Below, piece by piece: positions 33,187-45,806 of a DNA stretch of 64,000 nucleotides. The stretch spans positions 186,001 to 250,000 of the forward strand of contig NZ_RBCI01000008.1 in NCBI RefSeq assembly GCF_003628535.1. Reading direction: 5' to 3'. The DNA is from Flavisolibacter nicotianae. Lineage in GTDB: Bacteria > Bacteroidota > Bacteroidia > Chitinophagales > Chitinophagaceae. A program made the translations under genes and the position numbers. The notes beneath the pieces are model-generated. The model did no database searches. It saw only the letters and a program-made list of their open reading frames with translations, and was not told the DNA's origin. Numbering within the stretch: position 1 is the first letter of the stretch; each line of letters opens with the position of its first letter.

Positions 33187-33190
33187 CACT

Positions 33191-33208
33191 CCCATTGTAA
33201 AAAATGGG
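33191..33208 (+). promoter_or_regulatory. 5'-terminal hairpin of the S10 operon leader
   Basis: CCCATT (33191-33196) pairs with AATGGG (33203-33208) around a 6-base loop at the predicted 5' end of the mRNA, 8 bases before rpsJ ATG. It could stabilise the transcript or be a simple control site. Confidence 0.45.
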
Positions 33209-33216
33209 AATCGATT

Positions 33217-33522
33217 ATGTCACAACGAATCAGAATTAAACTTCAGTCTTACGACCACAACCTGGTAGACAAATCAGCAGAGAAAATTGTTAAGACTGTT
33301 CGTAGCACCGGCGCCGTAGTTACAGGTCCAATTCCTCTGCCTACCCGCAAGAAGATCTTTACCGTGTTGCGTTCACCCCACGTGAACAAAAAGAGCCGCG
33401 AACAGTTCCAGTTGGCCACTCACAAGCGCCTGCTGGATATCTACACTTCTTCTTCAAGAACCGTAGATGCCCTGTCGAAGCTGGATTTGCCCTCTGGTGT
33501 TGAGGTTGAAATCAAAGCGTAA
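33217..33522 (+). CDS. rpsJ: 30S ribosomal protein uS10
   Basis: A 101-residue ribosomal protein of the 30S head that also pairs with NusB in antitermination. [21 protein letters not shown] and [29 protein letters not shown] are family hallmarks. ATG 33217 is set by this N-terminus; an upstream ATG would lie in the promoter. First gene of the S10-spc operon. A 295-base spacer before rplC is unusually long. Confidence 0.98.
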
Positions 33523-33817
33523 AAGAAGTCCTTACCAAAGGCAAGCAGTTCTTATAAAACCATTTCTCATCTCTCAACCGAATCCCGTTTTCCGGGAAGC
33601 GAAAAAAGAGCTCTGAAACAAAATGCGGGTAAAACCGCACATTACATATAAACAAGCCCTTCGAGGTTTGTTTGTCGCCGGTACTTCTGAAGCCGCCACG
33701 AGCGGACCGCGTAAAGCGAGATAAAAGAAAAGGTCGGATGATGAACCAGGATTGAAGACCCAACTATACCAATGGGTCTGTCTTGCACAACCTTGCGGGG
33801 ATTAAACCGCAAAACAA
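33523..33817. other. Long rpsJ-rplC spacer, 295 bases
   Basis: It contains no gene and no terminator with a T run. Short inverted pieces exist (for example CCCG...CGGG near 33585-33600). It does not show the 7- or 8-base periodicity of the later spacers. It could house a leader for L4-type autoregulation placed after rpsJ, but nothing decisive is visible. Confidence 0.4.
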
Positions 33818-34435
33818 ATGAAAGGTATCATTGGTAAAAAAATTGGGATGACCAGCGTCTTCGATCCGAGCGGCAAACAAACCGCTTGTACGATTATCGA
33901 AGCTGGTCCTTGCGTCGTTACGCAAGTCAAGACACAGGACACAGACGGCTACAGCGCTATCCAGGTAGCCTTCGGCGACAAGAAAGACAAACACGCCACT
34001 GCAGCAGAAAAAGGACACTTCTCCAAGGCCAGCACTCCGGCTAAGAAATTTGTAAAGGAATTTCGCAACTCTTCTCTCGACAAAAATATTGGTGACACCA
34101 TCACAGTAGACATCTTCGCCGAAGGCGAAAAAGTCGAGGTTGTCGGTACCACAAAAGGTAAAGGCTTCCAGGGTGTTGTTAAGCGCCACGGATTTAGTGG
34201 TGTGGGTGAAGCTTCTCACGGTCAGCACGACCGTCAAAGAGCTCCGGGTTCGATCGGTGGTTCGTCTTACCCTTCCCGTGTATTCAAAGGCATGCGCATG
34301 GCCGGCCGTATGGGTACCGACCGTGTAAAGGTGAAAGGCCTGAAGATCGTTAAGATTTTCCCTGAGAAAAATTTCATTTTGGTAAGTGGTTCAGTTCCGG
34401 GCCATAATGGTTCAATCGTTTTAATCCAGAAATAG
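33818..34435 (+). CDS. rplC: 50S ribosomal protein uL3
   Basis: A 205-residue large-subunit protein reaching toward the peptidyl transferase centre. [16 protein letters not shown] begins it, and the [17 protein letters not shown]-type loop appears as [19 protein letters not shown] (about residues 132-150). The end, [19 protein letters not shown], is typical. Only 55 bases lie before rplD, with a 9-bp hairpin starting just past the stop. Confidence 0.98.
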
Positions 34436-34456
34436 GGACACGCCGCTGGCGTGTCC
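34436..34456 (+). other. Hairpin right after the rplC stop codon
   Basis: GGACACGCC (34436-34444) pairs with GGCGTGTCC (34448-34456) over a 3-base loop. No T run follows, so it is not a classic terminator; it may be a processing or pausing site inside the operon. Confidence 0.55.
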
Positions 34457-34490
34457 GTACGGATAAGCCAGTGATAAAATAAAAATTATC

Positions 34491-35129
34491 ATGCAAGTAA
34501 AAGTATTCAACATACAAGGACAAGAAACAGGTAGAACTGTTGAGCTTCCTGAAGAAATCTTTGGTATCGAGCCAAACGACCACGCCATTTACCTTGCTGT
34601 AAAGCAATACCTGGCAGCCCAGCGCCAGGGTACACACAAAGTAAAAACCCGTGCCGAAGTGCAAGGTGCCAGCCGCAAACTGCACAAGCAAAAAGGTACC
34701 GGTGGCTCTCGTAAGGGCAACATTCGTAACCCGCTGTACAAAGGTGGTGGTACTATCTTCGGTCCCAAGCCGCACAAGTACGAAGTCAAGCTGAACCGCA
34801 AGGTGAAAGACCTGGCGAAAATGTCAGCCCTTGCGCACAAGGCAAAGGAAAATGCGATCGTCATCGTTGAAGATGTAACCCTGGATGCACCGAAGACAAA
34901 AACCTTTGCCGGTATCCTGAACAGCCTGAAGGTAGGCGAGAAGAAGAGCATTTTTGTTCTTCCGGAATACAACGAAAACGTATACGTATCGAGCCGCAAC
35001 ATTCCGTCAGTATTGACCACGTTGCTGAGCGATGTAAATACCTACGATATCGTGAATTCCGAAGTGCTGGTATTGACCGAAGGCGCTGCCAAGATCTTTG
35101 CCGGTAACGAGGAAGAAGCTGCAGCTTAA
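34491..35129 (+). CDS. rplD: 50S ribosomal protein uL4
   Basis: A 212-residue protein lining the exit tunnel. The extended loop is visible as RQGTHKVKTRAEVQGASRKLHKQKGTGGSRKGNIRNP (about residues 45-82), with the KGTGGSR motif. In enterobacteria L4 represses the S10 operon; whether it does so here is unknown. Followed by an octamer-periodic spacer of 79 bases before rplW. Confidence 0.97.
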   Translation: MQVKVFNIQGQETGRTVELPEEIFGIEPNDHAIYLAVKQYLAAQRQGTHKVKTRAEVQGASRKLHKQKGTGGSRKGNIRNPLYKGGGTIFGPKPHKYEVKLNRKVKDLAKMSALAHKAKENAIVIVEDVTLDAPKTKTFAGILNSLKVGEKKSIFVLPEYNENVYVSSRNIPSVLTTLLSDVNTYDIVNSEVLVLTEGAAKIFAGNEEEAAA

Positions 35130-35138
35130 GCCAACTAT

Positions 35139-35201
35139 GAAAATTTGAAAATGGCCGGTTCGTTCCTTTTCAAATTTTCAAATTTCTAAATTTTCAAATT
35201 T
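35139..35201 (+). repeat. Octamer-periodic inverted repeat, rplD-rplW spacer
   Basis: Left arm 35139-35151 and right arm 35167-35179 form a perfect 13-bp stem over a 15-base loop. The right side continues as words of 8 bases (TTTTCAAA repeated, with one TTTCTAAA) to about 35201, seven bases before the rplW ATG. Confidence 0.85.
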
Positions 35202-35208
35202 TTTTCAG

Positions 35209-35508
35209 ATGAGACCTTCTGAAGTATTAATAAAACCCATCCTAACCGAAAAGGCAAACGGCCAGCAGGAAAGCCTGCGCCGCTATGCTTTCAAGGTAGC
35301 CCGTAAAGCCAACAAGCTGGAAATCAAGAAAGCTGTTGAAGCCGTTTACGGTGTAACAATCGTTGATGTCAACACAATTGTGGTTCCTGGTAAAAACAAA
35401 ACCCGCTACACTAAAAAAGGTTTTGTACAAGGACAAAAATCGGCTTACAAGAAAGCGCTGGTAACAGTTGCCGAAGGCGAAACAATTGATCTTTACTCGA
35501 ACATCTAA
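35209..35508 (+). CDS. rplW: 50S ribosomal protein uL23
   Basis: A 99-residue protein at the tunnel exit and the docking site for trigger factor and SRP. VLIKPILTEKAN at the start and YAFKVARKANKLEIKKAVEAVYGVTIVDVNTI in the middle fit the family. Start ATG follows the octamer tract. The 84-base spacer to rplB is built of heptamers. Confidence 0.96.
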   Translation: MRPSEVLIKPILTEKANGQQESLRRYAFKVARKANKLEIKKAVEAVYGVTIVDVNTIVVPGKNKTRYTKKGFVQGQKSAYKKALVTVAEGETIDLYSNI

Positions 35509-35509
35509 G

Positions 35510-35555
35510 AAGTAGAAAGACAAAAGACCAACTTTTGACTTTTGAATTTTGACTT
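35510..35555 (+). repeat. Heptamer-periodic inverted repeat, rplW-rplB spacer
   Basis: The left array (35510-35530) has AAGxxxx words, and the right array (35531-35555) reads CTTTTGA, CTTTTGA, ATTTTGA, CTT at period 7. The 25 bases 35531-35555 occur identically at 44261-44285 before secY. Confidence 0.8.
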
Positions 35556-35592
35556 AAAAAGAATGGCCCGCAAGGCCGCAAAAATTGCAAAC

Positions 35593-36432
35593 ATGGCACT
35601 AAGAAAATACAAACCCATTACAGCCGGTACTCGTTGGAGAATTGGCAATGCATATGCTGAGATCACAACAGACACGCCGGAAAAATCTTTGCTCGAGTCA
35701 AAGAAAGGTTCCGGTGGTCGTAACTCCTCTGGTCGCAGAGCGATGCGTTACATCGGTGGCGGTAACAAGAATGCGTATCGTATCATCGATTTCAAGCGGG
35801 ATAAAAAAGAAATCCCTGCAAAGGTGGCAACCATCGAGTACGATCCGAACCGTACGGCGTTCATCGCCCTGCTGAATTATGCAGACGGTGAAAAGCGTTA
35901 CATCCTTTGCCCGCAAGGTCTGCAGGTGGGAATGACGGTTGTCAGCGGCGAAGCCGTGGCGCCTGAACTGGGTAATACGCTCCAGTTGAAAAATATGCCG
36001 TTGGGTACTGTGGTTCACAACATCGAAATGCAGCCTGGCCAGGGTGGTAAAATTGCCCGCTCTGCCGGTTCTTCTGCGCAGTTGTCGAACAAAGAAGAGA
36101 AGTATGCTGTATTGAAAATGCCGAGTGGCGAATTGCGCAAAGTATTGATTAATTGTCATGCAACAGTCGGCGTTGTTTCCAACTCGGATCACCAGCTCCA
36201 GTCAATGGGTAAAGCCGGTCGCAACCGTTGGAAAGGGATCAAGCCAAGAAACCGTGGTGTTGCCATGAACCCTGTGGATCACCCGATGGGTGGTGGTGAA
36301 GGTAAAGCCTCCGGTGGCCAGCCTCGCAGCAGAAACGGCCAATACTCTCGTGGGTTGAAAACACGCACCAAGGGTAAAGGAAGCGACAAGCTGATCATCC
36401 AGCGTAAGAATGGTTCCAAACTGGCGAAATAA
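35593..36432 (+). CDS. rplB: 50S ribosomal protein uL2
   Basis: A 279-residue primary rRNA-binding protein needed for subunit joining and peptidyl transfer. [16 protein letters not shown] begins it, GRNSSGR and the GGGxK region are present, and the C-terminal [12 protein letters not shown] loop (near residues 225-236) with the critical His is intact. ATG 35593 is chosen since the conserved protein starts there; upstream in-frame codons run into the heptamer tract. rpsS follows after 34 bases with no repeat tract. Confidence 0.97.
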
Positions 36433-36466
36433 TCAATCTTTTAACATCAGTAATTCGAAATAACAC

Positions 36467-36736
36467 ATGGCTCGTTCAATTAAAAAAGGTCCTTACGTAG
36501 CAGCTCATTTAGAAGATAAAGTTGTTGCGATCAATGACGGTAAAACAAAAAGAGGTGTGATTAAAACCTGGAGCCGTCGTTCGACAATCACTCCTGATTT
36601 TGTTGGTCACACGTTCGCTGTACACAACGGGAACAAATTCATTCCTGTGTATGTAACAGAGTTCATGGTTGGTCACAAGCTCGGCGAGTTTGCACCTACC
36701 CGTAACTTCAAAGGACACTCAAGTAAAAAAGGATAA
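36467..36736 (+). CDS. rpsS: 30S ribosomal protein uS19
   Basis: An 89-residue head protein that contacts the A-site tRNA and S13. [43 protein letters not shown] and [15 protein letters not shown] are all characteristic. The 86-base spacer after it carries a heptamer inverted repeat. Confidence 0.98.
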
Positions 36737-36740
36737 AACA

Positions 36741-36812
36741 GTTTTGAGTTTAACGTTTAGAGTTTTGAGTGAAGTACACGAAACTCAAAACTCAAGACCC
36801 AAAACACCAAAC
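36741..36812 (+). repeat. Heptamer-periodic inverted repeat, rpsS-rplV spacer
   Basis: The left array (36741-36772) uses GTTTxxx words at period 7 and the right array (36780-36812) their complement. The inner parts 36760-36770 and 36783-36793 form a perfect 11-bp stem over 12 bases. The array ends 10 bases before the rplV ATG. Confidence 0.85.
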
Positions 36813-36822
36813 AAGATATAAA

Positions 36823-37161
36823 ATGGAAGCAGTAGCAAAACTGAGAAATTACCCGACATCGCCCCGTAAAATGCGCCTCCTGGCCGATTTGATCCGTGGC
36901 ATGCAAGTAGAAAAGGCCCTGGCGGTTCTGGAGCACAATCCAAAACACCCGGCGGTGCCTATGCGTAAACTGGTGCTGAGTGCCATCAGCAACTGGAAGC
37001 AGAAAAACGAAGGTGGTGACGAGGGTTCTCTGTATGTAAAAACCATCTTCGTTGATGGTGCCAGAACGCTGAAGCGCATGCGTCCCGCTCCGCAAGGTCG
37101 TGGTTACCGCGTTCGCAAAAGAAGCAATCACGTCACTGTCATTGTAGACGCAAAACCTTAA
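36823..37161 (+). CDS. rplV: 50S ribosomal protein uL22
   Basis: A 112-residue protein whose beta hairpin lines the exit tunnel, a site of macrolide resistance. [28 protein letters not shown] is the conserved N-terminal helix region, and [26 protein letters not shown] is the hairpin. ATG 36823 is selected; an earlier in-frame ATG would translate the heptamer tract. rpsC follows after 26 bases. Confidence 0.97.
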
Positions 37162-37187
37162 TTCAAAATCGTACATAAAATATAATC

Positions 37188-37991
37188 ATGGGTCAAAAAG
37201 CAAATCCGATTGGTAACAGGTTAGGTATCATCCGCGGATGGGAATCTAACTGGTATGGCAACAAGAAAGACTTTGCCAACAAACTGATTGAGGATAACAA
37301 AATCAGAACGTATCTGAATGCCCGTATCAATAAAGGTGGTATCTCCAAGATCGTGATTGAGCGTACGCTTGGAAAACTGATCATCACCATCCATACGTCA
37401 AAGCCTGGTATCATCATCGGAAAAGGTGGTGGCGAGGTTGATCGTGTGAAAGAAGAATTGAAGAAGCTGACCGGTAAGGAAGATGTTCAGATCAACATTC
37501 TCGAGATCCGTCGTCCTGAACTGGATGCAATGATCGTTGGCGATACCATTGCCCGCCAGATCGAAAACCGCATCAACTTTAAGCGTGCCACGAAGATGGC
37601 GATTGCTTCTGCTCTCCGCATGGGTGCCGAAGGAATTAAAGTGCAGCTGAGCGGACGCCTGGGCGGTGCGGAGATTGCCCGTAGCGAAAAGTTCATGCAA
37701 GGTCGTGTTCCCCTGCATACATTCCGGATGGACATTGATTATGCAAACGTTTTTGCGCAAACTGTATACGGAAAGATCGGTATCAAAGTATGGATCTGCC
37801 GTGGTGAGGTATTGGCAAAGCGTGACCTGAACCCCAATATCATCGGCGGAAAAGAAGGCGGTGAAATGGGCGGAAGAAGAGATAACCGTGGTGATTTCGG
37901 TCGTCGCGATGACAGAGGTGAGCGCCGTGGTGGCGGTGGCGATCGCAGAGGCGGTGGCCGTCAGGGCGGACAAGGTGGTGGACGCCGATAA
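37188..37991 (+). CDS. rpsC: 30S ribosomal protein uS3 with an RGG-rich tail
   Basis: A 267-residue protein at the mRNA entry tunnel. [18 protein letters not shown], the KH domain [18 protein letters not shown] (about residues 69-86) and [11 protein letters not shown]-type end are present. The last 45 residues form an Arg/Gly/Asp-rich low-complexity tail ([20 protein letters not shown] and more), longer than usual and typical of RNA-binding RGG regions. The 114-base spacer to rplP is heptameric. Confidence 0.96.
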
Positions 37992-38100
37992 GAGCCGCAA
38001 GCTGCCAGCCATAAGCTGGAAACGAGGAACAGTACAAAAATTGTAAAGACAGGTTTTAGTTGAAGGTTTTACCACGAACTACAAACCACAAACGATAAAC
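37992..38100 (+). repeat. Heptamer-periodic tracts, rpsC-rplP spacer
   Basis: The left array (37992-38025) uses AGCxxxx words (AGCCGCA, AGCTGCC, AGCCATA, AGCTGGA). The right array (38077-38100) uses AACxxxx words (AACTACA, AACCACA, AACGATA). The two are not complements, so this spacer appears to be a mosaic of two different word families. Confidence 0.65.
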
Positions 38101-38105
38101 AAGTT

Positions 38106-38528
38106 ATGTTACAGCCGAAAAGAACAAAGCACAGAAAGATGCAGAAAGGTCGCATGAAAGGCGACGCGAAAAGAGGCACAACCATCTCTTTCGGTTCTTA
38201 TGCATTGAAAGCTTTGGAAGACCATTGGATTACTGACCGCCAGATCGAAGCTGCCCGTCAGGCCCTGACCCGTCACATGAAGCGTGAAGGGAACGTGTGG
38301 ATCCGTATTTTCCCAGACAAGCCGATCACCAACAAACCTGCAGAGGTGCGTATGGGTAAAGGTAAGGGTAACCTGGAGTACTGGGCTGCCGTGGTAAAAC
38401 CCGGTCGCATCATCTTCGAAATTGATGGTGTATCGGAAGAAGTGGCACAGGGCGCCCTGAAACTGGCAGCCGGTAAACTGCCTATTGCAACAAAATTCAT
38501 CAAGCGTCACGACCTGGCTGAAGCTTAA
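38106..38528 (+). CDS. rplP: 50S ribosomal protein uL16
   Basis: A 140-residue protein at the A-site tRNA elbow. [51 protein letters not shown] and [20 protein letters not shown] are standard. The C-terminus lacks insertions. The 98-base spacer to rpmC is an octameric inverted repeat. Confidence 0.98.
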
Positions 38529-38530
38529 TT

Positions 38531-38618
38531 AATGTGATAATGTGAAAATATGAAAATGTGAAAATGGCTTGAACCATCTCTTCATTTTCAAATTTTCAAA
38601 TTTTCGAATTTTCAAATT
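38531..38618 (+). repeat. Octamer-periodic inverted repeat, rplP-rpmC spacer
   Basis: Left arm 38531-38566 (words AATGTGAT, AATGTGAA, AATATGAA, AATGTGAA) and right arm 38583-38618 (words such as AATTTTCA) are inverted complements at 30 of 36 positions by hand alignment, over a 16-base loop. The arm ends 8 bases before the rpmC ATG. Confidence 0.88.
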
Positions 38619-38626
38619 ACAATACA

Positions 38627-38833
38627 ATGTCAAAGACAGTTGATTTCAAAAAAAGCATTCAGGCGCTGAGCGTGGAAGACTTAACTGCCCGTATTCAGGA
38701 AGATGAGCTGCGTTTAAAGAAGCTTGAATTTGCACACGCTATTTCTCCGTTGGAAAACCCAATGAACATCCGCAACCTGCGCAGAGAAGTGGCCCGTTTG
38801 AAAACTGAATTAAAAAAGAAACAACAAGGTTAA
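38627..38833 (+). CDS. rpmC: 50S ribosomal protein uL29
   Basis: A 68-residue two-helix protein near the tunnel exit. The helices are ALSVEDLTARIQEDELRLKKLEFAHAI and NPMNIRNLRREVARLKTELKKKQ, with the N-I-R-x-x-R signature. Next is rpsQ after a 71-base heptameric spacer. Confidence 0.95.
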   Translation: MSKTVDFKKSIQALSVEDLTARIQEDELRLKKLEFAHAISPLENPMNIRNLRREVARLKTELKKKQQG

Positions 38834-38837
38834 TAAC

Positions 38838-38898
38838 AGCTACAAGCTGTTAGCTACGAGCCGCAAGCTTGTAGCTTGAAGCTAGAAGCTAAAAGCTT
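38838..38898 (+). repeat. Heptamer-periodic inverted repeat, rpmC-rpsQ spacer
   Basis: The left array (38838-38868) is AGCTACA, AGCTGTT, AGCTACG, AGCCGCA, AGC. The right array (38869-38898) is its complement-type, built from TAGCTTC-like words at the same period. It ends 6 bases before the rpsQ ATG. Confidence 0.85.
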
Positions 38899-38904
38899 AA
38901 ATAT

Positions 38905-39174
38905 ATGGCTGAAGCAACAACAACAAGAAATTTACGGAAAGAAAGAATTGGTGTGGTTACCAGCAACAAGATGAACAAAACCATCACTGTTGCCGTAGAG
39001 CGTAAGGTAAAGCACCCAATCTATGGTAAATTCATTAAAAAGACGACCCGGTTTCATGCGCACGACGAAAAGAACGAAGCGAGCATCGGTGACGTTGTCC
39101 GCATTCATGAAACCCGTCCGCTGAGCAAAACTAAGCGTTGGAGACTGGTAGAGATTGTCGAGAAAGTGAAGTAA
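38905..39174 (+). CDS. rpsQ: 30S ribosomal protein uS17
   Basis: An 89-residue primary 16S-binding OB-fold protein. [33 protein letters not shown] and [22 protein letters not shown] are the family core. rplN follows after 135 bases of heptameric spacer. Confidence 0.97.
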
Positions 39175-39178
39175 GAAA

Positions 39179-39308
39179 AGCTGCAGGCTATTAGCGACAA
39201 GCCACAAGCTTTGAGCTACATAAAGCAGGCAGTTAGTATAATAATAATGATTTTAAAACAGTAGGAGGCAGGCTTGCAGCTTGCAGCCTGAAGCTAAAAG
39301 CTAAATAA
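39179..39308 (+). repeat. Heptamer-periodic inverted repeat, rpsQ-rplN spacer
   Basis: The left array (39179-39220) is AGCTGCA, GGCTATT, AGCGACA, AGCCACA, AGCTTTG. The right array (39268-39308) is GCAGGCT, TGCAGCT, TGCAGCC, TGAAGCT, AAAAGCT. The 47-base centre has no period. It shares the AGC word family with the spacer before rpsQ. Confidence 0.8.
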
Positions 39309-39309
39309 A

Positions 39310-39678
39310 ATGATCCAGCAAGAATCTCGTTTGGCCGTAGCGGATAACAGTGGTGCGAAAGAAGTACTGTGTATCCGTGTATTGGGAAACAGTGGTCAGC
39401 GCTACGCCGGCGTAGGCGATAAAATTGTGGTGACGGTAAAGGATGCCATCCCTGCCGGTGGTATTAAGAAAGGTACCGTTGCAAAAGCGGTAATCGTTCG
39501 CACAAAGAACAAATTGCGTCGCAAAGACGGATCTTATATCCGTTTCGATGATAACGCGGTTGTGATCCTGAACGCCGCCGACGAGCCAAGAGGTACCCGT
39601 ATTTTCGGCCCTGTTGCCCGTGAGCTCCGCGATAAAGGCTACATGAAGATTATTTCTCTGGCACCGGAAGTGCTGTAA
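39310..39678 (+). CDS. rplN: 50S ribosomal protein uL14
   Basis: A 122-residue beta-barrel protein at the subunit interface. [40 protein letters not shown] and [29 protein letters not shown] match exactly the expected pattern and length. The 150-base spacer to rplX contains heptamers and an inner hairpin. Confidence 0.98.
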
Positions 39679-39769
39679 ACGTGAGACGAGAAACGTTAAA
39701 CGTGAAACCGGAGGAACTCTCAAATTGTCGTTAACTCCGGTCTTCCGTTTCACCTTTCCCGCTTCACTT
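39679..39769 (+). repeat. Heptamer-periodic inverted repeat, rplN-rplX spacer
   Basis: The left array (39679-39712) is ACGTGAG, ACGAGAA, ACGTTAA, ACGTGAA. The right array (39745-39769) has GTTTCAC, CTTTCCC, GCTTCAC. An inner CCGGAG/CTCCGG stem (39709-39714 with 39735-39740) closes the loop. The same word family precedes the ECF sigma gene at 57527. Confidence 0.8.
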
Positions 39770-39828
39770 AATTAATTTTGCAAACTCCTCCTCCCGTTGG
39801 AATGGGAGGGAAAAAGGAACCATAAAAA

Positions 39829-40158
39829 ATGAAGACAAGATTTAAACCCAAGTACAACATCCGCAAAGGCGACCAGGTGGTTGTGATTGCCGGAGATGAC
39901 AAGGACCTGAAAAAGCCTCGCGAGGTGAAAGAGGTGCTGGTGGAAGATGGTAAAGTGATTGTAGACGGTGTGAATATCATCACCAAGCACACAAAACCTT
40001 CTGCGCAAAATACCAAAGGCGGTATCGTGAAGAAAGAAGCTCCCATCGCTATCTCCAACGTGATGCTGTGGGACGGCAAGCAAGCCACCAAGGTAAAGCG
40101 TGAAGTAAAAGACGATAAAAAAGTTCGTATATCTAAAAAATCTGGAGGGATCATCTAA
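39829..40158 (+). CDS. rplX: 50S ribosomal protein uL24
   Basis: A 109-residue assembly-initiating protein with a KOW motif ([20 protein letters not shown], about residues 10-29). [19 protein letters not shown] and the [10 protein letters not shown] segment follow. Its TAA stop shares one base with the rplE start (TAATG), so the two are translationally coupled. Confidence 0.97.
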
Positions 40159-40727
40159 TGGCTACGAAAACTAAAGTAACTCCAAGATTAAAGGAAAAAT
40201 ATGCCAACGAAGTGGCACCGGCATTGCAGAAGCGGTTTAACTACAAATCCTTCATGCAGGTTCCCCGTTTGGAAAAGATCTCTATCAACCGTGGTGTGAA
40301 CGGTGCGGTGAATGACAAGAAGTTGGTAGACATTGCTCTTGAAGAATTGTCAACCATCAGCGGTCAGAAAGCGGTTGCGACAATGTCAAAAAAAGACATT
40401 TCGAACTTTAAGCTGCGTAAGAACATGCCGATTGGTGCAAAAGTTACGCTGCGCGGTGAAAAGATGTATGAATTCCTGGATCGTTTGATCTCCGTTGCGC
40501 TTCCCCGTGTACGCGATTTCAAAGGGGTAAACGAGAAGTCATTCGATGGTCGCGGTAACTACACCATGGGTGTAACCGAGCAGATCATCTTCCCGGAGAT
40601 CGATATCGACAAAGTGAGTCGTATCACCGGTATGGACATCACGTTTGTTACCAGTGCTCAAAATGACGAAGAAGCATACGAGCTGTTGAAAGAACTGGGT
40701 ATGCCTTTCAAAAATGTCAAAAAATAA
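40158..40727 (+). CDS. rplE: 50S ribosomal protein uL5
   Basis: A 189-residue protein that binds 5S rRNA in the central protuberance. [22 protein letters not shown]-like N-terminus, the [34 protein letters not shown] core and [19 protein letters not shown] are present. It overlaps rplX by one base. The 88-base spacer to rpsN is octameric. Confidence 0.98.
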
Positions 40728-40729
40728 TG

Positions 40730-40805
40730 AGCAAATGTGAAAATGAGAAAATGTGCAAATGAAACAGCCATTTTCAAGTTTTTCAAATTTTCAAATTTTC
40801 AAATT
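40730..40805 (+). repeat. Octamer-periodic inverted repeat, rplE-rpsN spacer
   Basis: The left array (40730-40761) is AGCAAATG, TGAAAATG, AGAAAATG, TGCAAATG. The right array (40769-40805) is made of AATTTTCA words with one 9-base step. The loop is short. It shares its word family with the rplD-rplW and rplP-rpmC spacers. Confidence 0.85.
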
Positions 40806-40815
40806 AAAATAAACT

Positions 40816-41085
40816 ATGGCTAAAGAATCAGTAAAGGCCAGACAACGTAAAAGAGAGAGAATGGTCGCACAGTTTGCTGAAAAAAGAGAAGCACTGAAAG
40901 CTGCCGGCGATTGGAAAGCATTGGATGCCTTGCCAAAAAACTCTTCGAAAGTGCGTTTGAAAAACCGTTGCCAGATGACCGGCCGTCCCCGTGGTTACAG
41001 CCGTTATTTCGGTATCTCCCGTGTGGCACTGCGCGACATGGCGTTGAACGGTACCATTCCAGGCTTGAAGAAAGCAAGCTGGTAA
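40816..41085 (+). CDS. rpsN: 30S ribosomal protein uS14, zinc-free type
   Basis: An 89-residue head protein. [19 protein letters not shown] and the C-terminal [39 protein letters not shown] are typical of the long C- form, which lacks the two CxxC zinc pairs of the short form. rpsH follows after a 139-base heptameric spacer. Confidence 0.98.
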
Positions 41086-41091
41086 GAAAAA

Positions 41092-41172
41092 GGTTTGCGT
41101 TTAGTGTTTTAAGCTTTGGGTTAGTCAAAGTTTGAAACATGCACTAAACACAAGACACAAAACTTTAAACAA
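41092..41172 (+). repeat. Heptamer-periodic inverted repeat, rpsN-rpsH spacer
   Basis: The left array (41092-41124) is GTTTGC, GTTTAGT, GTTTTAA, GCTTTGG, GTTAGT. The right array (41142-41172) is the complement-type ACTAAAC, ACAAGAC, ACAAAAC, TTTAAAC. It belongs to the GTTTxxx family of the rpsS-rplV and rpsE-rpmD spacers. Confidence 0.8.
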
Positions 41173-41224
41173 CTTAAAACATCCAATTGCTCCGGGTGAA
41201 CCGGGGTGTAGGAGGACAATAAAC

Positions 41225-41623
41225 ATGGTAACAGATCCTATTGCAGATTTTTTGACAAGAATTCGTAATGCGCAAATGGCCGGTCACCGCATCGTGGAAA
41301 TCCCTGCGTCGAACCTGAAAAAGCGTATGACTGAAATTTTGTACAACCAGGGTTATATTCTGAAATACAAATTCGAAGACGATAACAAGCAAGGCGTGAT
41401 CAAGATTGCCTTGAAATACGATGCCGCCACCAAGCAACCCGCCATCCAATCGCTGGAACGAGTAAGCCGCCCGGGTCTGCGTACCTATGCGAAGCCTGCC
41501 GAGTTCCGTCGTGTGAAAAACGGCCTGGGTATTGCGATCGTTTCTACGTCGAAGGGCGTTTTGACCGACAAGGAAGCAAAAGCACAAAACGTAGGTGGCG
41601 AGGTTCTTTGCTACATCTACTAA
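41225..41623 (+). CDS. rpsH: 30S ribosomal protein uS8
   Basis: A 132-residue platform protein that binds helix 21 of 16S rRNA and in E. coli regulates the spc operon. [19 protein letters not shown] is the N-terminal hallmark and the C-terminal [33 protein letters not shown] is intact. ATG 41225 follows GGAGGACAATAAAC, so it has a Shine-Dalgarno-like tract; upstream in-frame codons run through the repeat. Confidence 0.97.
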
Positions 41624-41624
41624 G

Positions 41625-41720
41625 CGTTGCCAGCTAAAGTTGCAGATACATTAAGCCGAGACTATACTAGGCTGACCGGTCGGCAACGTAAAACATAAAA
41701 CTTCATACTTAAAACTTTTT
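41625..41720 (+). repeat. Long-range hairpin and one-armed heptamer tract, rpsH-rplF spacer
   Basis: CGTTGCC (41625-41631) pairs with GGCAACG (41682-41688), enclosing 50 bases. After it come AAAACAT, AAAACTT, CATACTT, AAAACTT at period 7 (about 41691-41718) with no inverted array. It is a variant of the general spacer plan. Confidence 0.6.
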
Positions 41721-41725
41721 AGAAC

Positions 41726-42280
41726 ATGTCTCGTATAGGTAAAGCCCCAATTACAGTTCCCAGCGGTGTTACGGTTACCGTCGGAAAAGACAACGTGGTT
41801 TCTGTAAAAGGTCCGAAAGGCCAGTTGCAGGAAACAATTGACCGTGATATTACCGTGGAAGTGAAAGATGGTACCATCAATATCACTCGACCCACCGACC
41901 AAATCCGTCACCGTGCCCTGCATGGTTTGTCAAGAGCCCTTGTTGCCAACATGGTAAAAGGCGTGACAGAAGGCTACACAAAAAAGCTTGAACTGATTGG
42001 TGTGGGTTTCAAAGCTGCCAATACCGGAAATGTACTGGACCTGGCTTTGGGTTACTCGCACAACATCATCTTCGAAGTTCCAAACGAACTGAAAGTGGCT
42101 ACCGAACAGTTGAAAGGTCAAAACCCAACTATCACACTGGAAAGCACTGACCGCCAGCTGCTCGGTGCAGTTGCCGCGAAGATCCGCAGCCTGCGCAAGC
42201 CTGAGCCGTACAAAGGAAAAGGTGTGCGTTATGTTGGCGAAATCGTACGCAAGAAAGCCGGTAAAGCTGCTGGTAAATAA
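41726..42280 (+). CDS. rplF: 50S ribosomal protein uL6
   Basis: A 184-residue protein near the GTPase centre with two similar domains. MSRIGKAPITVPSGVTV, TRPTDQIRHRALHGLSRALVANMVKGV and the C-terminal RKPEPYKGKGVRYVGEIVRKKAGKA signature are clear. The 107-base spacer to rplR is heptameric. Confidence 0.98.
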   Translation: MSRIGKAPITVPSGVTVTVGKDNVVSVKGPKGQLQETIDRDITVEVKDGTINITRPTDQIRHRALHGLSRALVANMVKGVTEGYTKKLELIGVGFKAANTGNVLDLALGYSHNIIFEVPNELKVATEQLKGQNPTITLESTDRQLLGAVAAKIRSLRKPEPYKGKGVRYVGEIVRKKAGKAAGK

Positions 42281-42353
42281 ATTTGAAATTTCTTATTTGA
42301 GATTTGCGATTGGAGTTTTCCAATTTCAAATCTCAAACTTCAAACATCAAATC
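42281..42353 (+). repeat. Heptamer-periodic inverted repeat, rplF-rplR spacer
   Basis: The left array starts at the rplF stop: ATTTGAA, ATTTCTT, ATTTGAG, ATTTGCG, ATTGGAG (42281-42315). The right array (42322-42353) is AATTTCA, AATCTCA, AACTTCA, AACATCA. Hand alignment gives about 23 of 32 paired positions over a 6-base loop. Confidence 0.85.
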
Positions 42354-42387
42354 ATTCACGGCAGAATCGTGAATTAAATACAGAAAA

Positions 42388-42747
42388 ATGAGAACAAGCG
42401 CAAAAACAACAAGAAGGCAGAACATCCGCTACCGCATCCGTAGAAAGATTGCCGGTACTGCACAAAAGCCCCGTCTGTCTGTTTTCCGTAGCAATAAGGA
42501 CATCTACGTTCAGTTGATCGATGACGATGCAGCCGTAACTATCGCTGCCGCCTCTTCGAGGGACAAGGACATTGCTGCCCAGGCAGGAAATAAAAGCGAA
42601 AAGGGCAAACTGGTAGGCCAGGCCATTGCCCGCAAAGCAAAAGACCTCGGTATCGAGAACGTGGTATTTGATCGCAGCGGTTACCTGTATCATGGCCGTG
42701 TAAAGTCTGTCGCTGACGGCGCAAGAGAAGGTGGACTGGTATTCTAA
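42388..42747 (+). CDS. rplR: 50S ribosomal protein uL18
   Basis: A 119-residue 5S rRNA-binding protein. [36 protein letters not shown] and the [22 protein letters not shown] end are diagnostic. The N-terminus is basic. rpsE follows after only 30 bases, a spacer without repeat arrays. Confidence 0.97.
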
Positions 42748-42777
42748 TTTTTAACTACGTAATTACGAAATAATAAA

Positions 42778-43296
42778 ATGGCAAAAGCAATTTTAAACAG
42801 AGTAAAAGCAGGCGACCTTGAACTGAAAGAAAAGGTAGTTGCTATCAATCGTGTAGTCAAAACTACCAAAGGCGGTCGTACGTTCTCTTTCTCTGCACTG
42901 GTGGTAGTGGGCAACGAAAACGGTGTTGTTGGCCACGGCCTCGGTAAAGCCAAAGAAGTACAGGAAGCAATTACCAAAGGAATTGAAGATGCAAAGAAAA
43001 ATCTCATCAAGGTTCCGGTAATGCACGGTACAATCCCCCACGACCAGTTGGCTAAAGTTGGCGCTGCGAAAGTCCTGATTAAGCCTGCCGCTCACGGTAC
43101 GGGTGTGATCGCCGGAGGTTCAATGCGTGCTGTGCTGGAGAGCGCCGGTGTAACCGACGTACTGGCAAAGTCACTGGGATCTGCCAACCCGCACAACGTG
43201 GTAAAGGCAACCTTTGAAGCCTTGGCTCTTTTGCGTGAACCGATCTCTGTTTCCAAAACAAGAAGGGTTGCGTTGAAGAAAGTATTTAACGGATAA
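42778..43296 (+). CDS. rpsE: 30S ribosomal protein uS5
   Basis: A 172-residue protein at the mRNA entry with roles in decoding accuracy. [31 protein letters not shown] and [32 protein letters not shown] are family cores. The spectinomycin loop (VKTTKGGR) is standard. The spacer to rpmD is a heptamer inverted repeat. Confidence 0.98.
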
Positions 43297-43301
43297 GAAA
43301 A

Positions 43302-43375
43302 GTTTAGAGTTTAGAGTTTTAAGTTTTGAGTTGGTCAAAACCTCAACCTTAAACACTAAACCCAAAACCTTAAAC
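43302..43375 (+). repeat. Heptamer-periodic inverted repeat, rpsE-rpmD spacer
   Basis: The left array (43302-43334) is GTTTAGA, GTTTAGA, GTTTTAA, GTTTTGA, GTTGG. The right array (43341-43375), read on the minus strand, is again GTTTxxx words. It belongs to the same word family as the rpsS-rplV spacer 6.5 kb away. Confidence 0.85.
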
Positions 43376-43383
43376 TACTTACA

Positions 43384-43566
43384 ATGAAAAAGATAAGAAT
43401 AACTTTAGTCAAAAGCCCAATCGACAGACCCGAGCGTCAGAAACTGACCTTGCAGGCCCTGGGTTTAAATAAGTTGAACGCTTCGAAAGAAGTGGAAGCC
43501 ACTCCGCAGATCCTTGGCATGGTGCGCAAAGTTGAGCACATGATCAGCGTAGAAGACGTCGCATAA
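43384..43566 (+). CDS. rpmD: 50S ribosomal protein uL30
   Basis: A 60-residue protein. KKIRITLVKSPIDRPERQKLTLQALGL followed by ATPQILGMVRKVEHMISVEDV is the full family pattern. Some bacteria lack rpmD; it is present here in its normal place between rpsE and rplO. Confidence 0.96.
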   Translation: MKKIRITLVKSPIDRPERQKLTLQALGLNKLNASKEVEATPQILGMVRKVEHMISVEDVA

Positions 43567-43569
43567 ATT

Positions 43570-43643
43570 ATTTGAATGATAAGTGTTGAATGTTGAATTA
43601 ATGAGTAGTTCCATTCAACATTTATCATTCAGCATTTAACATC
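43570..43643 (+). repeat. Heptamer-periodic inverted repeat, rpmD-rplO spacer
   Basis: The left array (43570-43602) contains TGAATGA, TAAGTGT, TGAATGT, TGAATTA. The right array (43612-43643) is CATTCAA, CATTTAT, CATTCAG, CATTTAA. Bases 43578-43592 and 43612-43626 pair at 14 of 15 positions. Confidence 0.87.
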
Positions 43644-43692
43644 ATTCTTAAAGCGAGGGGAGAAGAACCCCGTAAGTAAAAATCAATCAAAG

Positions 43693-44142
43693 ATGAAACT
43701 ACACAATTTGCGTCCTGCTAAAGGCGCCGTTCACAAAGAGAAAAGATTAGGTCGTGGTGAAGCTTCCGGACATGGTGGCACATCAACAAAAGGTAACAAG
43801 GGTGGCCAGAGCCGTGCAGGTTACAAGCGCAAGCGTGCCCATGAAGGTGGCCAGATGCCGATCCAACGTCGTGTTCCGAAGCGTGGCTTCAAAAACCCCG
43901 ATCGTATCGAATACAAAGTGTTCAACCTTGGACAAATTGAGCAACTGCAGGAAAAATATGGTTTGCAGGAATTTTCTCTTGAAAACCTGTACACCAACGG
44001 CCTCATTAACCAGACTGACAGGGTAAAAGTGCTCGGAAACGGAGAATTGAAATCAAAGCTCACCTTCAAAGTGAACGCAATCAGCGAAAAAGCCAAGCAA
44101 GCGATCGAAGCCGTTGGCGGTAGCGTTGAAATCGTGAAGTAA
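43693..44142 (+). CDS. rplO: 50S ribosomal protein uL15
   Basis: A 149-residue late-assembly protein. MKLHNLRPAKGAVHKEKRLGRGEASGHGGTSTKGNKGGQSRAG shows the Gly-rich N-terminal extension that threads through rRNA, and RRVPKRGFKNP is conserved. The 159-base spacer before secY is the longest repeat-bearing one. Confidence 0.97.
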   Translation: MKLHNLRPAKGAVHKEKRLGRGEASGHGGTSTKGNKGGQSRAGYKRKRAHEGGQMPIQRRVPKRGFKNPDRIEYKVFNLGQIEQLQEKYGLQEFSLENLYTNGLINQTDRVKVLGNGELKSKLTFKVNAISEKAKQAIEAVGGSVEIVK

Positions 44143-44196
44143 ATTGTCTTATATTGCAAGGCACCGTAAATGTCTTGCATTTAAATGCTATTGAAA

Positions 44197-44290
44197 AAAA
44201 AGTCAAAGGTAAAAAAACAGAGTTCAAAAGGGTTTTCGCAAGCCACCCAACCTCATTTTTACTTTTGACTTTTGAATTTTGACTTCAAAT
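44197..44290 (+). repeat. Heptamer-periodic inverted repeat, rplO-secY spacer
   Basis: The left array (44197-44232) is built of AAAxxxx words and the right array (44255-44290) of CTTTTGA words. Bases 44261-44285 are identical to 35531-35555 before rplB. The array ends 11 bases before the secY GTG. Confidence 0.85.
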
Positions 44291-44301
44291 AATTCTCTTC
44301 T

Positions 44302-45645
44302 GTGAAAAATTTAATTAAGACCTTAAAAAACATCTGGAGCATAGAGGAACTGCGCAGCAAAATCCTTTACACCCTGCTCCTGTTGTTTATCTATCGTGTC
44401 GGTACGCATATCGTGTTGCCCGGTGTGAATCCGGAAGGACTGACCCGTGTGGCCGAACAAACAAAGAGCAACGGTATCCTGGGCCTGATCAACACGTTTG
44501 CAGGTGGTGCCTTTTCACAGGCATCCATTTTTGCATTGGGTATCATGCCTTACATCTCCGCGTCGATCTTTGTTCAGTTAATGACCGTTCTGGTTCCACA
44601 ATTCCAGAAGATGCAGAAAGAAGGTGAGAGCGGCCGTAAGAAAATCAACCAATGGACCCGTTACCTGACCGTTGCGGTGACCATGGTTCAGGCTTCTGCT
44701 TATGTAGCCTACCTGCGCCAGATCACCGGTCAGGCCGGAGGTATCCTGCCTTCGTATATCGATTATTTCTGGTTGTCGACCGTTGTTATCCTGACGGCCG
44801 GTACGATGTTCGTTATGTGGTTGGGTGAAAAGATCACGGACAAGGGATTGGGCAACGGTACGTCGCTGATCATCATGATCGGTATCCTGGCCCGCCTACC
44901 GCAGTCGTTCATGCAGGAACTGGGAAGCAAGTCAACCCGTTCCGGTTTGATCCTGCTTTTCATCGTTGAAATCGCTATCCTCATTGCCATCATCATGGGA
45001 TGTATCATGCTGGTGCAAGGTGTTCGCAAAATACCGGTTAACTATGCCAAGCAGATTGTTGGTAACCGCCAGTTTGGTGGTGCCCGCCAGTTCCTGCCCA
45101 TTAAGGTAAACAGTGCCGGTGTTATGCCGATCATCTTCGCGCAGGCTGTTTTGTTCCTGCCCACGTTGTTCAACCTGACTGGCACAGCAACCGGTACCGG
45201 TATTGCCAGCATGTTCCAGGATCACTCGAATGTTGGGTATATGATCGTTTACGCGGTGGTTGTAATTGGATTTACTTTCCTTTACACAGCCCTGATCTTT
45301 AACCCCAAACAAATCGCCGACAACCTGAAGCAGAACAATGGTTTCATCCCGGGTGTAAAGCCAGGTCAGCCAACAGCCGACTATATCGGTGGCATTATGG
45401 ATAAGATCACGCTGCCCGGCGCCATCCTGTTGGCACTGGTTGGTATTCTTCCCGGTATTGCACAACGCCTTGGTGTTCAGCCGAGCTTCTCCACATTTTT
45501 TGGAGGTACTTCGCTGTTGATCATGGTGGGTGTCATCCTCGACACGCTTCAGCAAATTGAAACACAATTGCTGATGCGTCAGTACGATGGTTTGATGAAG
45601 AGCGGCCGTATCCAGGGCAGAACTGTAACCCAGGCTTCTTACTAA
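44302..45645 (+). CDS. secY: Preprotein translocase subunit SecY
   Basis: A 447-residue channel of the Sec machinery with ten transmembrane helices. RSKILYTLLLLFIYRVGTHIVLPG forms the start of TM1, ALGIMPYISASIFVQLMTVL is TM2, and GLGNGTSLIIMIGILARLP and the GGTSLLIMVGVILDTLQQIE end are conserved. The start codon is GTG at 44302. Signal recognition particle- and SecA-contact loops are normal. A terminator follows, closing the S10-spc operon. Confidence 0.97.
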   Translation: MKNLIKTLKNIWSIEELRSKILYTLLLLFIYRVGTHIVLPGVNPEGLTRVAEQTKSNGILGLINTFAGGAFSQASIFALGIMPYISASIFVQLMTVLVPQFQKMQKEGESGRKKINQWTRYLTVAVTMVQASAYVAYLRQITGQAGGILPSYIDYFWLSTVVILTAGTMFVMWLGEKITDKGLGNGTSLIIMIGILARLPQSFMQELGSKSTRSGLILLFIVEIAILIAIIMGCIMLVQGVRKIPVNYAKQIVGNRQFGGARQFLPIKVNSAGVMPIIFAQAVLFLPTLFNLTGTATGTGIASMFQDHSNVGYMIVYAVVVIGFTFLYTALIFNPKQIADNLKQNNGFIPGVKPGQPTADYIGGIMDKITLPGAILLALVGILPGIAQRLGVQPSFSTFFGGTSLLIMVGVILDTLQQIETQLLMRQYDGLMKSGRIQGRTVTQASY

Positions 45646-45673
45646 GAAGACACGTATAAACTTTTTACAAATC

Positions 45674-45703
45674 AAAACCTGGTGAGACATCTTACCGGGT
45701 TTT
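45674..45703 (+). terminator. Intrinsic terminator after secY
   Basis: AAAACCTGGT (45674-45683) pairs with ACCGGGTTTT (45694-45703), with one T-G pair and a 10-base loop, followed by a T run. It ends the long operon. Confidence 0.85.
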
Positions 45704-45716
45704 TTTGTCAATGCCA

Positions 45717-45800
45717 TCAGCTTTCTGTCATCGGCTACCTATAAAATTTCATTTTCCGGTAGTTTTAAACCGAAAGACAGCGGCTGGTAACTGAAAGCGC
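45717..45800 (+). repeat. Heptamer-periodic inverted repeat upstream of map
   Basis: The left part (45717-45741) reads CAGCTTT, CTGTCAT, CGGCTAC. The right part (45770-45800), read on the minus strand, gives GCTTTCA, GTTACCA, GCCGCTG, TCTTTCG. A central ACC...GGT pair closes the loop. Periodicity is weaker than in the operon but of the same type. Confidence 0.5.
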
Positions 45801-45806
45801 AAGATT

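Follow-up and report, generated by a model that had tools for sequence, protein, structure and literature searches.

Inverted arrays of 7- and 8-base words in the S10-spc spacers of Flavisolibacter and in the intergenic DNA of related bacteria

The S10-spc operon and its spacers

The window analyzed here, a stretch of 64,000 nucleotides from Flavisolibacter nicotianae (Flavisolibacter/Flaviaesturariibacter), carries an S10-spc ribosomal protein operon whose longer spacers, between 35130 and 44301 on the + strand, are occupied by degenerate tandem words. A preliminary description had placed such words in nearly every long spacer, at a step of 7 bases or, in rplD-rplW, rplP-rpmC, and rplE-rpsN, of 8, and this step is borne out against dinucleotide shuffles: of the 16 spacers that are 50 bases or longer, 13 reach z = 3.8–7.1 at lag 7 or 8, with lag 8 dominant in the three named (z 4.2, 6.6, and 5.3, respectively). 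Pooled over the window, autocorrelation likewise exceeds that of the shuffles at lag 7 (z 14.4), lag 8 (5.9), and lag 14 (10.2), stands at 2.8 at lag 9, and lies at about -1 to 0 at lags 10–13. Among the 16 spacers measuring 40 bases or more, 11 attain a local-segment score S of at least 14, the threshold for calling a period-7/8 array. Two long spacers, rpsH-rplF and rplO-secY, fall short of the described pattern, with a whole-spacer lag-7 z of just 1.8. The spacers rplB-rpsS, rplV-rpsC, rplX-rplE (length 0), rplC-rplD, and rpsJ-rplC are free of arrays, as claimed; rplR-rpsE, with 30 bases and a lag-8 z of 3.4, is too short for judgment.

Two-armed period-8 arrays lie in rplD-rplW (35130..35208; GAAAATTT... 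/ TTTTCAAA...; S 20; fold z -2.4), in rplP-rpmC (38529..38626; GTGAAAAT / TTTTCAAA; S 23; fold z -4.3), which has related elements at about 18 other sites of its own genome, and in rplE-rpsN (40728..40815; S 19; fold z only -0.7). Inverted period-7 arrays of the form GTTTnnn / nnnAAAC are found in rpsS-rplV (36737..36822; lag-7 z 5.9; S 19; fold z -4.6) and rpsE-rpmD (43297..43383; z 5.6; S 19; fold z -1.7), and AAACnnn recurs in the 3' part of the period-7 array of rpsC-rplP (37992..38105; z 4.3; S 13). The word AGCTnnn forms an array in rpmC-rpsQ (38834..38904; z 7.1; S 23; fold z -3.4) and arms flanking a long loop in rpsQ-rplN (39175..39309; z 4.3; S 17). As rplB starts at 35593 (MALRKYKP), the rplW-rplB spacer spans 35509..35592; it holds a period-7 array, ACTTTTGACTTTTGAATTTTGACTT, with a short 5' arm (z 4.5, computed on 35509-35563; S 15; fold z -2.5). 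In rplO-secY (44143..44301), period-7 arms (AAAGTCAAA / ACTTTTGACTTTTGA) enclose a long loop; the whole-spacer lag-7 signal is not significant, with S 17 and a fold z of -3.4 (44152-44301).

Arrays had been expected to end 5–15 bases before the next start codon, but this is not always the case, as a leader element conserved among congeners intervenes in four spacers. These are rplN-rplX (39679..39828; arms AACGTGA / TTTCACC; lag-7 z 3.8; S 13; fold z -3.5), rpsN-rpsH (41086..41224; inverted; z 3.9; S 10; fold z -3.8), rplF-rplR (42281..42351; inverted, ATTTGAG / CAAATCT; whole-spacer z 5.5 and fold z -6.0; S 24), and rpmD-rplO (43567..43692; inverted, a near-perfect hairpin; z 3.8; S 12; fold z -6.5), all with period-7 arrays. 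The leader hairpin of rplN-rplX (CTCCCGTTGGAATGGGAG) is common to the window and the loci L081 and L082, while the array upstream of it is present with a similar loop in L081 and absent from L082. The borderline rpsH-rplF spacer (41624..41725; S 14) has a conserved leader element followed by a weak period-7 tail. The rplR leader hairpin (42352..42376, + strand; N6-GGCAGNATC-N6'), which is conserved and separate from the arrays, occurs at 39 of 85 loci, with covariation in all six pairs and 93% of cells paired, and serves as an RNA-level contrast to the arrays.

The layout was described as mostly inverted, and 10 of the 13 lag-positive spacers do have an inverted-repeat score above that of every one of 20 shuffles, the exceptions being rplW-rplB, rpsC-rplP, and rpsQ-rplN; that of rpsH-rplF is also within its shuffles. 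Folding z-scores of 17 spacers range from +0.5 to -6.5, being weak in rplE-rpsN (-0.73) despite its two visible arms. A search of positions 30000-50000 with Rfam 15 covariance models (E <= 0.1) returned no family above its gathering score: its single match, at 38534-38616 of the - strand, was to a microRNA family and reached 34.3 bits where 90.8 are required. Intrinsic terminators are not over-represented in 34400-46000 (16 terminator-like sites, 16.1 in shuffles), and none of the three on the + strand falls within an array spacer.

Genomic distribution and vocabulary

The arrays are not a device specific to the S10-spc operon, as they extend beyond 35130..44301, genome-wide, and occupy co-directional, convergent, and divergent gaps in 2.4 Mb of a congener. 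At S of at least 14, the intergenic DNA of this 2.4 Mb gives 111 arrays at lag 7 and 39 at lag 8, with harmonics at lag 14 (47) and lag 16 (16) and no more than 2 at any of the remaining lags between 4 and 15; the arrays end a median of 14 bases upstream of the next start. What does remain of the proposed tie to operon spacers is one of density. In the congener, arrays occur in 7 of 15 S10-spc gaps, in 5 of 11 gaps of other ribosomal, ATPase, NADH dehydrogenase, and suc operons, and in 88 of 863 elsewhere, so that housekeeping operons, whose "highly expressed" status is assigned by gene identity, are enriched both with S10-spc (12/26; p 5e-6) and without it (5/11; p 0.003). On the window contig, 11 of 16 S10-spc gaps and 2 of 71 other co-directional gaps carry arrays (p 1e-8). 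A link to codon bias in the congener is weak in co-directional gaps (p 0.035; quartiles 16, 27, 20, and 31 of 200), absent from convergent gaps (p 0.94), and opposite in direction in divergent gaps (p 0.08).

Lag 7 is seen in 35 of 78 testable relatives, and the arrays constitute a class of dispersed foldback-like intergenic elements of Chitinophagaceae and some relatives. Their vocabulary is large: 155 lag-7 segments yield 97 different consensus words, with a mean per-phase conservation of 0.77 and with conserved positions that tend to adjoin within the word. Of 60 genomes belonging to the order, 3 carry the AGCT word at period 7, 2 carry its reversed control TCGA at that period, and none carries AGCT at period 6 or 9. 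Matches of at least 40 bits between different spacers across genera number 139, against 11 for reversed and 1 for unit-shuffled sequences. One arm is identical at 37 of 37 positions in different spacers of L045 and L082. In the one same-genome family examined (12 elements), the two arms keep an identity of 0.71 and 0.79 from locus to locus (shuffled 0.56 and 0.62), while the loops, at 0.44, do not differ from their shuffles (0.43). One pair of elements is alike over 101 bases, loop included. Exact one-way arrays exist in small number (e.g., G003 3202129 and C64:125-378).

Array states at orthologous S10-spc spacers are unrelated between two congeners (table 2, 2 / 8, 4; p 0.60). In two congeners the rpsS-rplV spacer is 28 bases long and has no array. 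By eye, occupied and empty orthologous spacers differ in array presence with no clear target-site duplication. In one case, rplP-rpmC, the word has changed in both arms together (window TTTTCAAA, L082 TTATCAAA).

Arms, mismatches, and RNA-level function

Translation control, mRNA processing or stability, and a mutational process had all been put forward as roles. The mutational alternative fits best because array stems show no G-U preference, arrays stand in convergent and divergent gaps, 7- and 8-base duplications are in excess, and orthologous states are unrelated; fixed arm polarity and housekeeping enrichment would also suit function. The arrays resemble the trace of a DNA copying process more than they do an RNA control device.

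At the RNA level, a foldback transcript might block exonucleases, guide RNase III-type processing, or shield the next start region from upstream ribosomes. The position of the arrays between stop and start codons, their enrichment in housekeeping operons, the folding z-scores as low as -6.5, and a polarity that places the G-poor arm ahead of start codons are all consistent with such a function. Tolerance of G-U over A-C mismatches, expected of functional RNA hairpins, is nevertheless absent from array stems: GU:AC counts are 62:77 in hairpins scoring at least 20 from 168 S10-spc array spacers and 32:55 in the arrays of the congener, whereas equally scored hairpins from 584 non-array S10-spc spacers give 38:11. 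In the congener, however, the non-array control hairpins are themselves not GU-biased over 2.4 Mb (47:39; 27:15 in the first 1.2 Mb). Two arms are, moreover, as usual in convergent (13/16) and divergent (17/21) as in co-directional (69/101) array gaps of up to 300 bases, although convergent gaps without arrays carry hairpins too (median score 20). Together with the unrelated orthologous states and the two array-less rpsS-rplV spacers, these observations make an RNA-level function rather unlikely.

Origin of the arrays and related systems

The preferred reading, tentative and held at slightly under even chances, is that these dispersed foldback-like arrays are made and homogenized by slippage and template switching at the DNA level, favored in highly transcribed ribosome-free gaps. 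Arrays would grow and stay uniform through slippage by one unit (7 or 8 bases) during DNA synthesis, their arms would be matched by template switching between them (quasi-palindrome correction), and occasional copying from locus to locus would spread them. Such events would be promoted by intense transcription where ribosomes leave the transcript uncovered, and tolerated in gaps because these are non-coding; the foldback would be a by-product that lengthens spacers and not a cistron-by-cistron control element. Exact intergenic tandem duplications exceed expectation at 7 bases (137 observed, 17 expected), 8 bases (25, 6), and the harmonic 14 (6, 0), and are near it at 4–6 and 9–13 bases. The match rate between units falls from 0.72 to 0.63, 0.55, and 0.45 at distances of one to four units, in agreement with local duplication. 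Inverted arms homogenized at the DNA level are known from quasi-palindrome template-switch mutations (PMC3820800, PMC8794818; see also PMC7202029), which in yeast were seen only under high transcription (PMC3820800), and template switching is reported to create and maintain hairpins (PMC8794818). Those mutations are a class without a 7/8-base step, whereas the arrays are a standing family.

Several observations sit less easily with this reading. Slippage that starts from random seeds leaves the cross-genus vocabulary unaccounted for, and the slippage and template-switch model offers no explanation for arm polarity, which is fixed, the left arm being G-rich and the right arm C-rich, in convergent gaps too (14:0 and 11:1). 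Unit for unit, the two arms are only modestly more complementary than when their units are permuted (26.8 versus 23.9, with only 16 of 168 array spacers beating all 20 unit permutations), which is less than recent template switching alone would leave. A bolder form of the preferred reading, possible although on balance doubtful, is that Bacteroidota host a self-propagating DNA process, linked to transcription, by which foldbacks of 7/8-base words are written into the ribosome-free gaps of busy operons, each written word seeding copies in its own arm, the opposite arm, and other loci, so that word families might last as long as a bacterial family has existed and need no transposase, as a bacterial counterpart of template-switch-driven foldback elements.

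Ordinary heptanucleotide simple-sequence repeats, produced by neutral polymerase slippage with inverted arms arising from chance or drift, would also account for the excess of 7-base duplications, and a heptamer excess is reported from several bacteria (PMC4692102, PMC4679880), for which slippage by a polymerase-sized step has been proposed (Mrazek and co-workers 2007, as cited there). The arrays resemble such repeats in having 7-base tandem units above shuffles. They are, however, degenerate, two-armed, and inverted, with period 7 or 8 and many words, and near-exact one-direction copies are not the rule; the inverted arms strain this explanation, as do the cross-genus vocabulary and the clustering in housekeeping operons, and it is improbable. 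MacGregor (2015, PMC4679880) describes TAACTGA direct repeats in Beggiatoaceae, Cyanobacteria, and five Bacteroidetes, and, beside them, repeats of other heptamers in Gramella, Aequorivita, and Elizabethkingia. Like the present arrays, the TAACTGA repeats are heptamers in gaps adjoining start codons, some within ribosomal-protein operons, but as portrayed there they consist of one fixed word in nearly all direct orientation. TAACTGA is absent from both strands of the S10-spc spacers of the window and from the 40 of the 97 consensus words listed. Cyanobacterial STRR are likewise tandem heptamers between genes, but are not known to be inverted.

Selection for a restricted vocabulary recognized by a putative DNA- or RNA-binding factor with a 7–8 base footprint would suit the words shared by several genera, including the 37/37 arm, and the contiguity of conserved positions, but 97 words in 155 segments and a word that differs from species to species at one and the same spacer are a misfit with one specificity, leaving this decidedly improbable. 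REP/REPIN elements are dispersed extragenic inverted doublets with a variable loop, all of which the arrays share, but the arrays have no single REP core and repeat units of 7/8 bases internally. Movement of such doublets by a RAYT (Y1_Tnp) transposase, for which the dispersal through many gaps, the pair alike over 101 bases, and the Y1_Tnp matches of 9 among 12 genomes might be cited, is very improbable: each genome has many word families, and S10-spc arrays (L089, L088) occur in two genomes without a Y1_Tnp match, G004, which is only 79% complete, and G005 (100% complete, 90 contigs). Eukaryotic foldback (FB) elements have long inverted arms of short subrepeats and unrelated loops; the arrays have such arms of direct subrepeats and heterogeneous loops, but are far shorter and bacterial, and neither a transposase nor a clear duplication of the target was seen with them.

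If the arrays act at the RNA level instead, the most important operons of Bacteroidota would share an intercistronic element that is general and does not depend on any particular word. If the DNA-level process holds, it would warn annotators that a stable intercistronic hairpin is not always a regulatory RNA, and the bacterial preference for tandem repeats of 7 bases, an old question, would become testable. It would also account for the long ribosomal-operon spacers of these bacteria, and across an entire bacterial family the DNA between genes would preserve a natural record of template switching linked to transcription.

Arrays in the S10-spc spacers

The genome that holds the window is 6.09 Mb in size, and the nearest named relatives of the L5 protein encoded in the window are those of Flavisolibacter longurius and Flaviaesturariibacter aridisoli (Chitinophagaceae). 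Genes from rplC to secY were located by translation and tblastn. The preliminary description placed degenerate tandem words with a step of 7 or 8 bases in the spacers from rplD to secY (window 35130..44301), and this is borne out in 13 of the 16 window spacers of at least 50 bases, where the signal at lag 7 or 8 stands above dinucleotide shuffles (z 3.8-7.1). Pooled over the window, lag 7 reaches a z of 14.4 and lag 14 one of 10.2, with 5.9 for lag 8, 2.8 for lag 9, and values of about -1 to 0 for lags 10-13. The inverted layout that was also described holds in part: the inverted score exceeds the best of 20 shuffles in 10 of the 13 signal-bearing spacers and fails to do so in the remaining three. 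The array spacers do fold stably as RNA (z down to -6.5), as is expected of any inverted repeat.

The same operon carries the signal in relatives. The lag tests covered spacers of at least 50 (or 40) bases. A testable spacer is present in 78 of 80 named loci; pooled lag-7 z is at least 4 in 35 of these, including loci of Segetibacter, Parafilimonas, Paraflavitalea, and Chitinophaga, and Siphonobacter, at 3.9, lies slightly below the threshold. At lags 9-13 none of the 78 loci reaches a pooled z of 4, at lag 5 one does and at lag 6 two do, and in several other Bacteroidota the S10-spc spacers are short and without lag signal.

Among nine congener loci, one orthologous spacer may carry an array, an array of another word, or nothing. 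The rpsS-rplV spacer displays GTTTnnn, AATTCAT, AAGTGAT, and other words, and is only 28 bases long in two congener species. In rplN-rplX, the arms and a similar loop are common to the window and congener locus L081 and are missing from congener locus L082. The two-armed rplP-rpmC array occurs, among these nine loci and the window, in the window and L082 only. There the word (TTTTC vs TTATC) differs in almost every unit of either arm, a concerted change seen in this single pair. Array states of S10-spc spacers in the window and in a sampled congener genome (G003) are unrelated ([[2,2],[8,4]], p 0.60).

Distribution beyond the operon

The G003 sample comprised 2.4 Mb, in which a purpose-made gene finder placed 2068 genes. 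Gaps of up to 600 bases were covered, and for hairpins those of up to 300 bases. Intergenic regions with local segments scoring S>=14 number 111 at lag 7 and 39 at lag 8, with harmonics at lag 14 (47 regions) and lag 16 (16 regions), and 0-2 regions at each remaining lag from 4 to 15. Exact intergenic tandem duplications are likewise in excess at 7 bases (137 observed vs 17 expected) and 8 bases (25 vs 6), with a harmonic at 14 bases (6 vs 0), and the excess extends outside arrays (57 vs 15 and 11 vs 5 for 7 and 8 bases, respectively). Within arrays, the match rate drops as unit distance grows. Raw counts for coding DNA, taken without shuffle control, are lag-7 segments at S>=16 in 9/970 genes and 150 exact 7-base duplications in 2.09 Mb. 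In another genome (G055), contigs C1, C6, C9, and C38 contain long AGCTCAT heptamer arrays (47 pattern matches in total), several of them about 140 bases apart on C38.

An operon-only distribution was suggested by the first 1.2 Mb of G003 (co-directional gaps 48/332, convergent 4/71, divergent 3/75, p 0.0017) and is rejected at 2.4 Mb, where arrays occupy 105/908 co-directional, 17/218 convergent, and 26/295 divergent gaps (p 0.12 and 0.20); for gaps of 40-199 bases the counts are 90/679, 11/176, and 12/155. The tie to operon spacers claimed earlier is partly right: arrays are present in all gap classes, and an enrichment in housekeeping gaps takes the place of an operon restriction. G003 arrays fall in 7/15 S10-spc gaps vs 98/893 (p 0.0007). 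For an unbiased test, housekeeping genes were picked independently from Escherichia coli, with 40 of 58 query proteins mapped (tufA and tufB both to a single gene at 28%). Gaps with housekeeping genes on both sides outside S10-spc carry arrays in 5/11 cases vs 88/863 at S>=14 (p 0.003) and in 8/11 vs 126/863 at S>=12 (p 3e-5); with S10-spc included the count is 12/26 (p 5e-6). Codon bias shows only a weak trend with arrays. On the window contig, S10-spc gaps carry arrays in 11/16 cases, against 2/71 for the remaining co-directional gaps, 1/27 for convergent ones, and 0/19 for divergent ones. Neighbor pairs found conserved in G003 have arrays in 12/25 cases vs 0/62 for other pairs; the latter are those for which the 2.4 Mb sampled, about half of the 5.1-Mb G003 genome, showed no conserved pair, with reciprocal matches for 78/210 genes. 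A BLAST search of the window's genome with S10-spc as query (E<=1) returned 64 matches, self included. Gene neighbors were read for 15 of these loci, and by Pfam (30 proteins) 9 of the 15 belong to gene groups for ribosomal proteins, ATPase, NADH dehydrogenase, or biotin carboxylase, a set biased by having been found through likeness to S10-spc arrays.

G003 gaps also contain a dispersed repeat that is not an array (copies at 2021869, 2026716, 2314833, 2053755, 3305795, and 1859383). Its copies span about 190-240 bases, are 75-100% alike, and have GGCCCATCCC and GGGATGGGCC at their ends.

Words, arms, and leader stems

A RAYT/REPIN mobile element seems unlikely: of 12 genomes searched, 9 have a Y1_Tnp match, and two whose S10-spc spacers carry arrays have none, one of them being 79% complete. 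A one-word binding site does not fit the many different consensus words among lag-7 segments. Exact word searches, which matched 1/247 and 2/147 genomes, are too strict for mapping word families. The rplP-rpmC element recurs at about 18 places beyond S10-spc (counted from the BLAST list), and 12 elements of this type have arms alike and loops unlike across loci. In G003, 123/148 array regions are BLAST-linked to another region with the low-complexity filter off, and one pair is alike across 101 bases, its nested arms built of two words and its loops resembling each other. Another dispersed repeat has the core GTGCGACGCAAC and is sometimes located within an array loop (G003 gaps, including the element at 2655952, and locus L232). 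When S10-spc arrays of other genera were compared with arrays of the window's genus, a first count over all spacers (186 real, 14 reversed, 5 unit-shuffled) had as top match a conserved leader of the same spacer. Recounted for different spacers only, matches of at least 40 bits number 139, 11, and 1, given by 48, 5, and 1 of 109 arrays. Such sharing implies that words were copied from one locus to another, inherited, or kept as a vocabulary by selection, three readings that are inseparable here. If one arm has its units permuted, the inverted score still reaches 23.9 (26.8 unpermuted); therefore, most arm complementarity stems from the shared word.

Stems kept as RNA should favor G-U over A-C mismatches. 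Both were scored alike in alignments of hairpins scoring at least 20. S10-spc array hairpins (168 spacers) have 62 G-U vs 77 A-C, non-array hairpins (584 spacers) 38 vs 11; G003 array hairpins have 32 vs 55 (p 0.018, opposite to the RNA expectation), and G003 non-array hairpins 47 vs 39, not significant. The two sets were not summed, as G003 S10-spc spacers are common to both; near-identical loci L056/L059 and L017/L038 were counted twice, and L082 and L086, duplicates of L001 and L002, were left out of pooled hairpin and leader counts. Intrinsic terminators are not indicated, terminator-like sites in 34400-46000 being at shuffle expectation and those on the + strand lying outside array spacers.

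The rplF-rplR spacer has a small hairpin (window 42352-42376) in which a covarying stem of 6 bp carries the loop GGCAGNATC. It recurs in 39/85 loci, mostly 19-24 bases upstream of the rplR (L18) start, and in 6/84 also before rplX. Among members selected for at least three pairs adjoining the loop, 93% of cells are paired, all six pairs have changed on both sides, and covariation is 0.875 vs 0.319 shuffled. Such behavior is what a stem kept as RNA should show. Rfam gave no match in the window stretch searched, and the hairpin looks like an undescribed ribosomal-protein leader. Array arms, unlike the non-array S10-spc hairpins, have no G-U preference, so their complementarity looks like a DNA-level property, and RNA helix selection on them gains no support from the mismatch counts. 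Other conserved leaders precede rplO (GCGAGGGG, rpmD-rplO spacer, 32/84 loci), rplF (ACATTAAGC, rpsH-rplF spacer, 25/85), and rpsH (GTAGGAGG, rpsN-rpsH spacer, 13/85). A near-perfect G+C-rich hairpin, GGACACGCCGCTGGCGTGTCC (window 34436-34456), lies immediately 3' of rplC in an array-free spacer.

Proposed slippage and template switching

Within gaps, arrays on the left side are mostly G-rich, and those on the right side mostly C-rich: 14 to 0 and 11 to 1 on the two sides of convergent gaps, 17 to 4 and 16 to 8 in divergent gaps, and 67 to 13 on the right of co-directional gaps, with the left mixed (41 to 36). Array-free gaps have a similar, weaker skew. Because it is present on both strands, this polarity points to foldback geometry rather than transcription, and slippage with template switching offers no good explanation for it.

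A heptamer excess is already known, with polymerase slippage proposed (PMC4692102; PMC4679880), and TAACTGA repeats in some ribosomal operons and other heptamer repeats in some Bacteroidetes are reported (PMC4679880). The repeats described there consist of a single word and are almost entirely direct, whereas the present arrays have many words and inverted arms; no inverted 7- or 8-base Bacteroidota arrays are described among the top-ranked open-licence literature. Hairpins can be created and maintained by template switching (PMC8794818), and arm-homogenizing quasi-palindrome mutations are associated with transcription in yeast (PMC3820800).

Of the roles the preliminary description had offered, those acting through a selected RNA stem lack G-U support, and a mutational origin fares better. 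The arrays would be built by slippage of one unit together with template switching from one inverted arm to the other, and transcription would favor both. This reading fits the exclusive step of 7 or 8 bases and the tandem-duplication excess at that step, similarity that declines as units lie farther apart, paired arms that show no G-U preference, the joint change of word in both arms, and the high density in housekeeping operons. That such a process operates in these genomes and is transcription-dependent is an inference.
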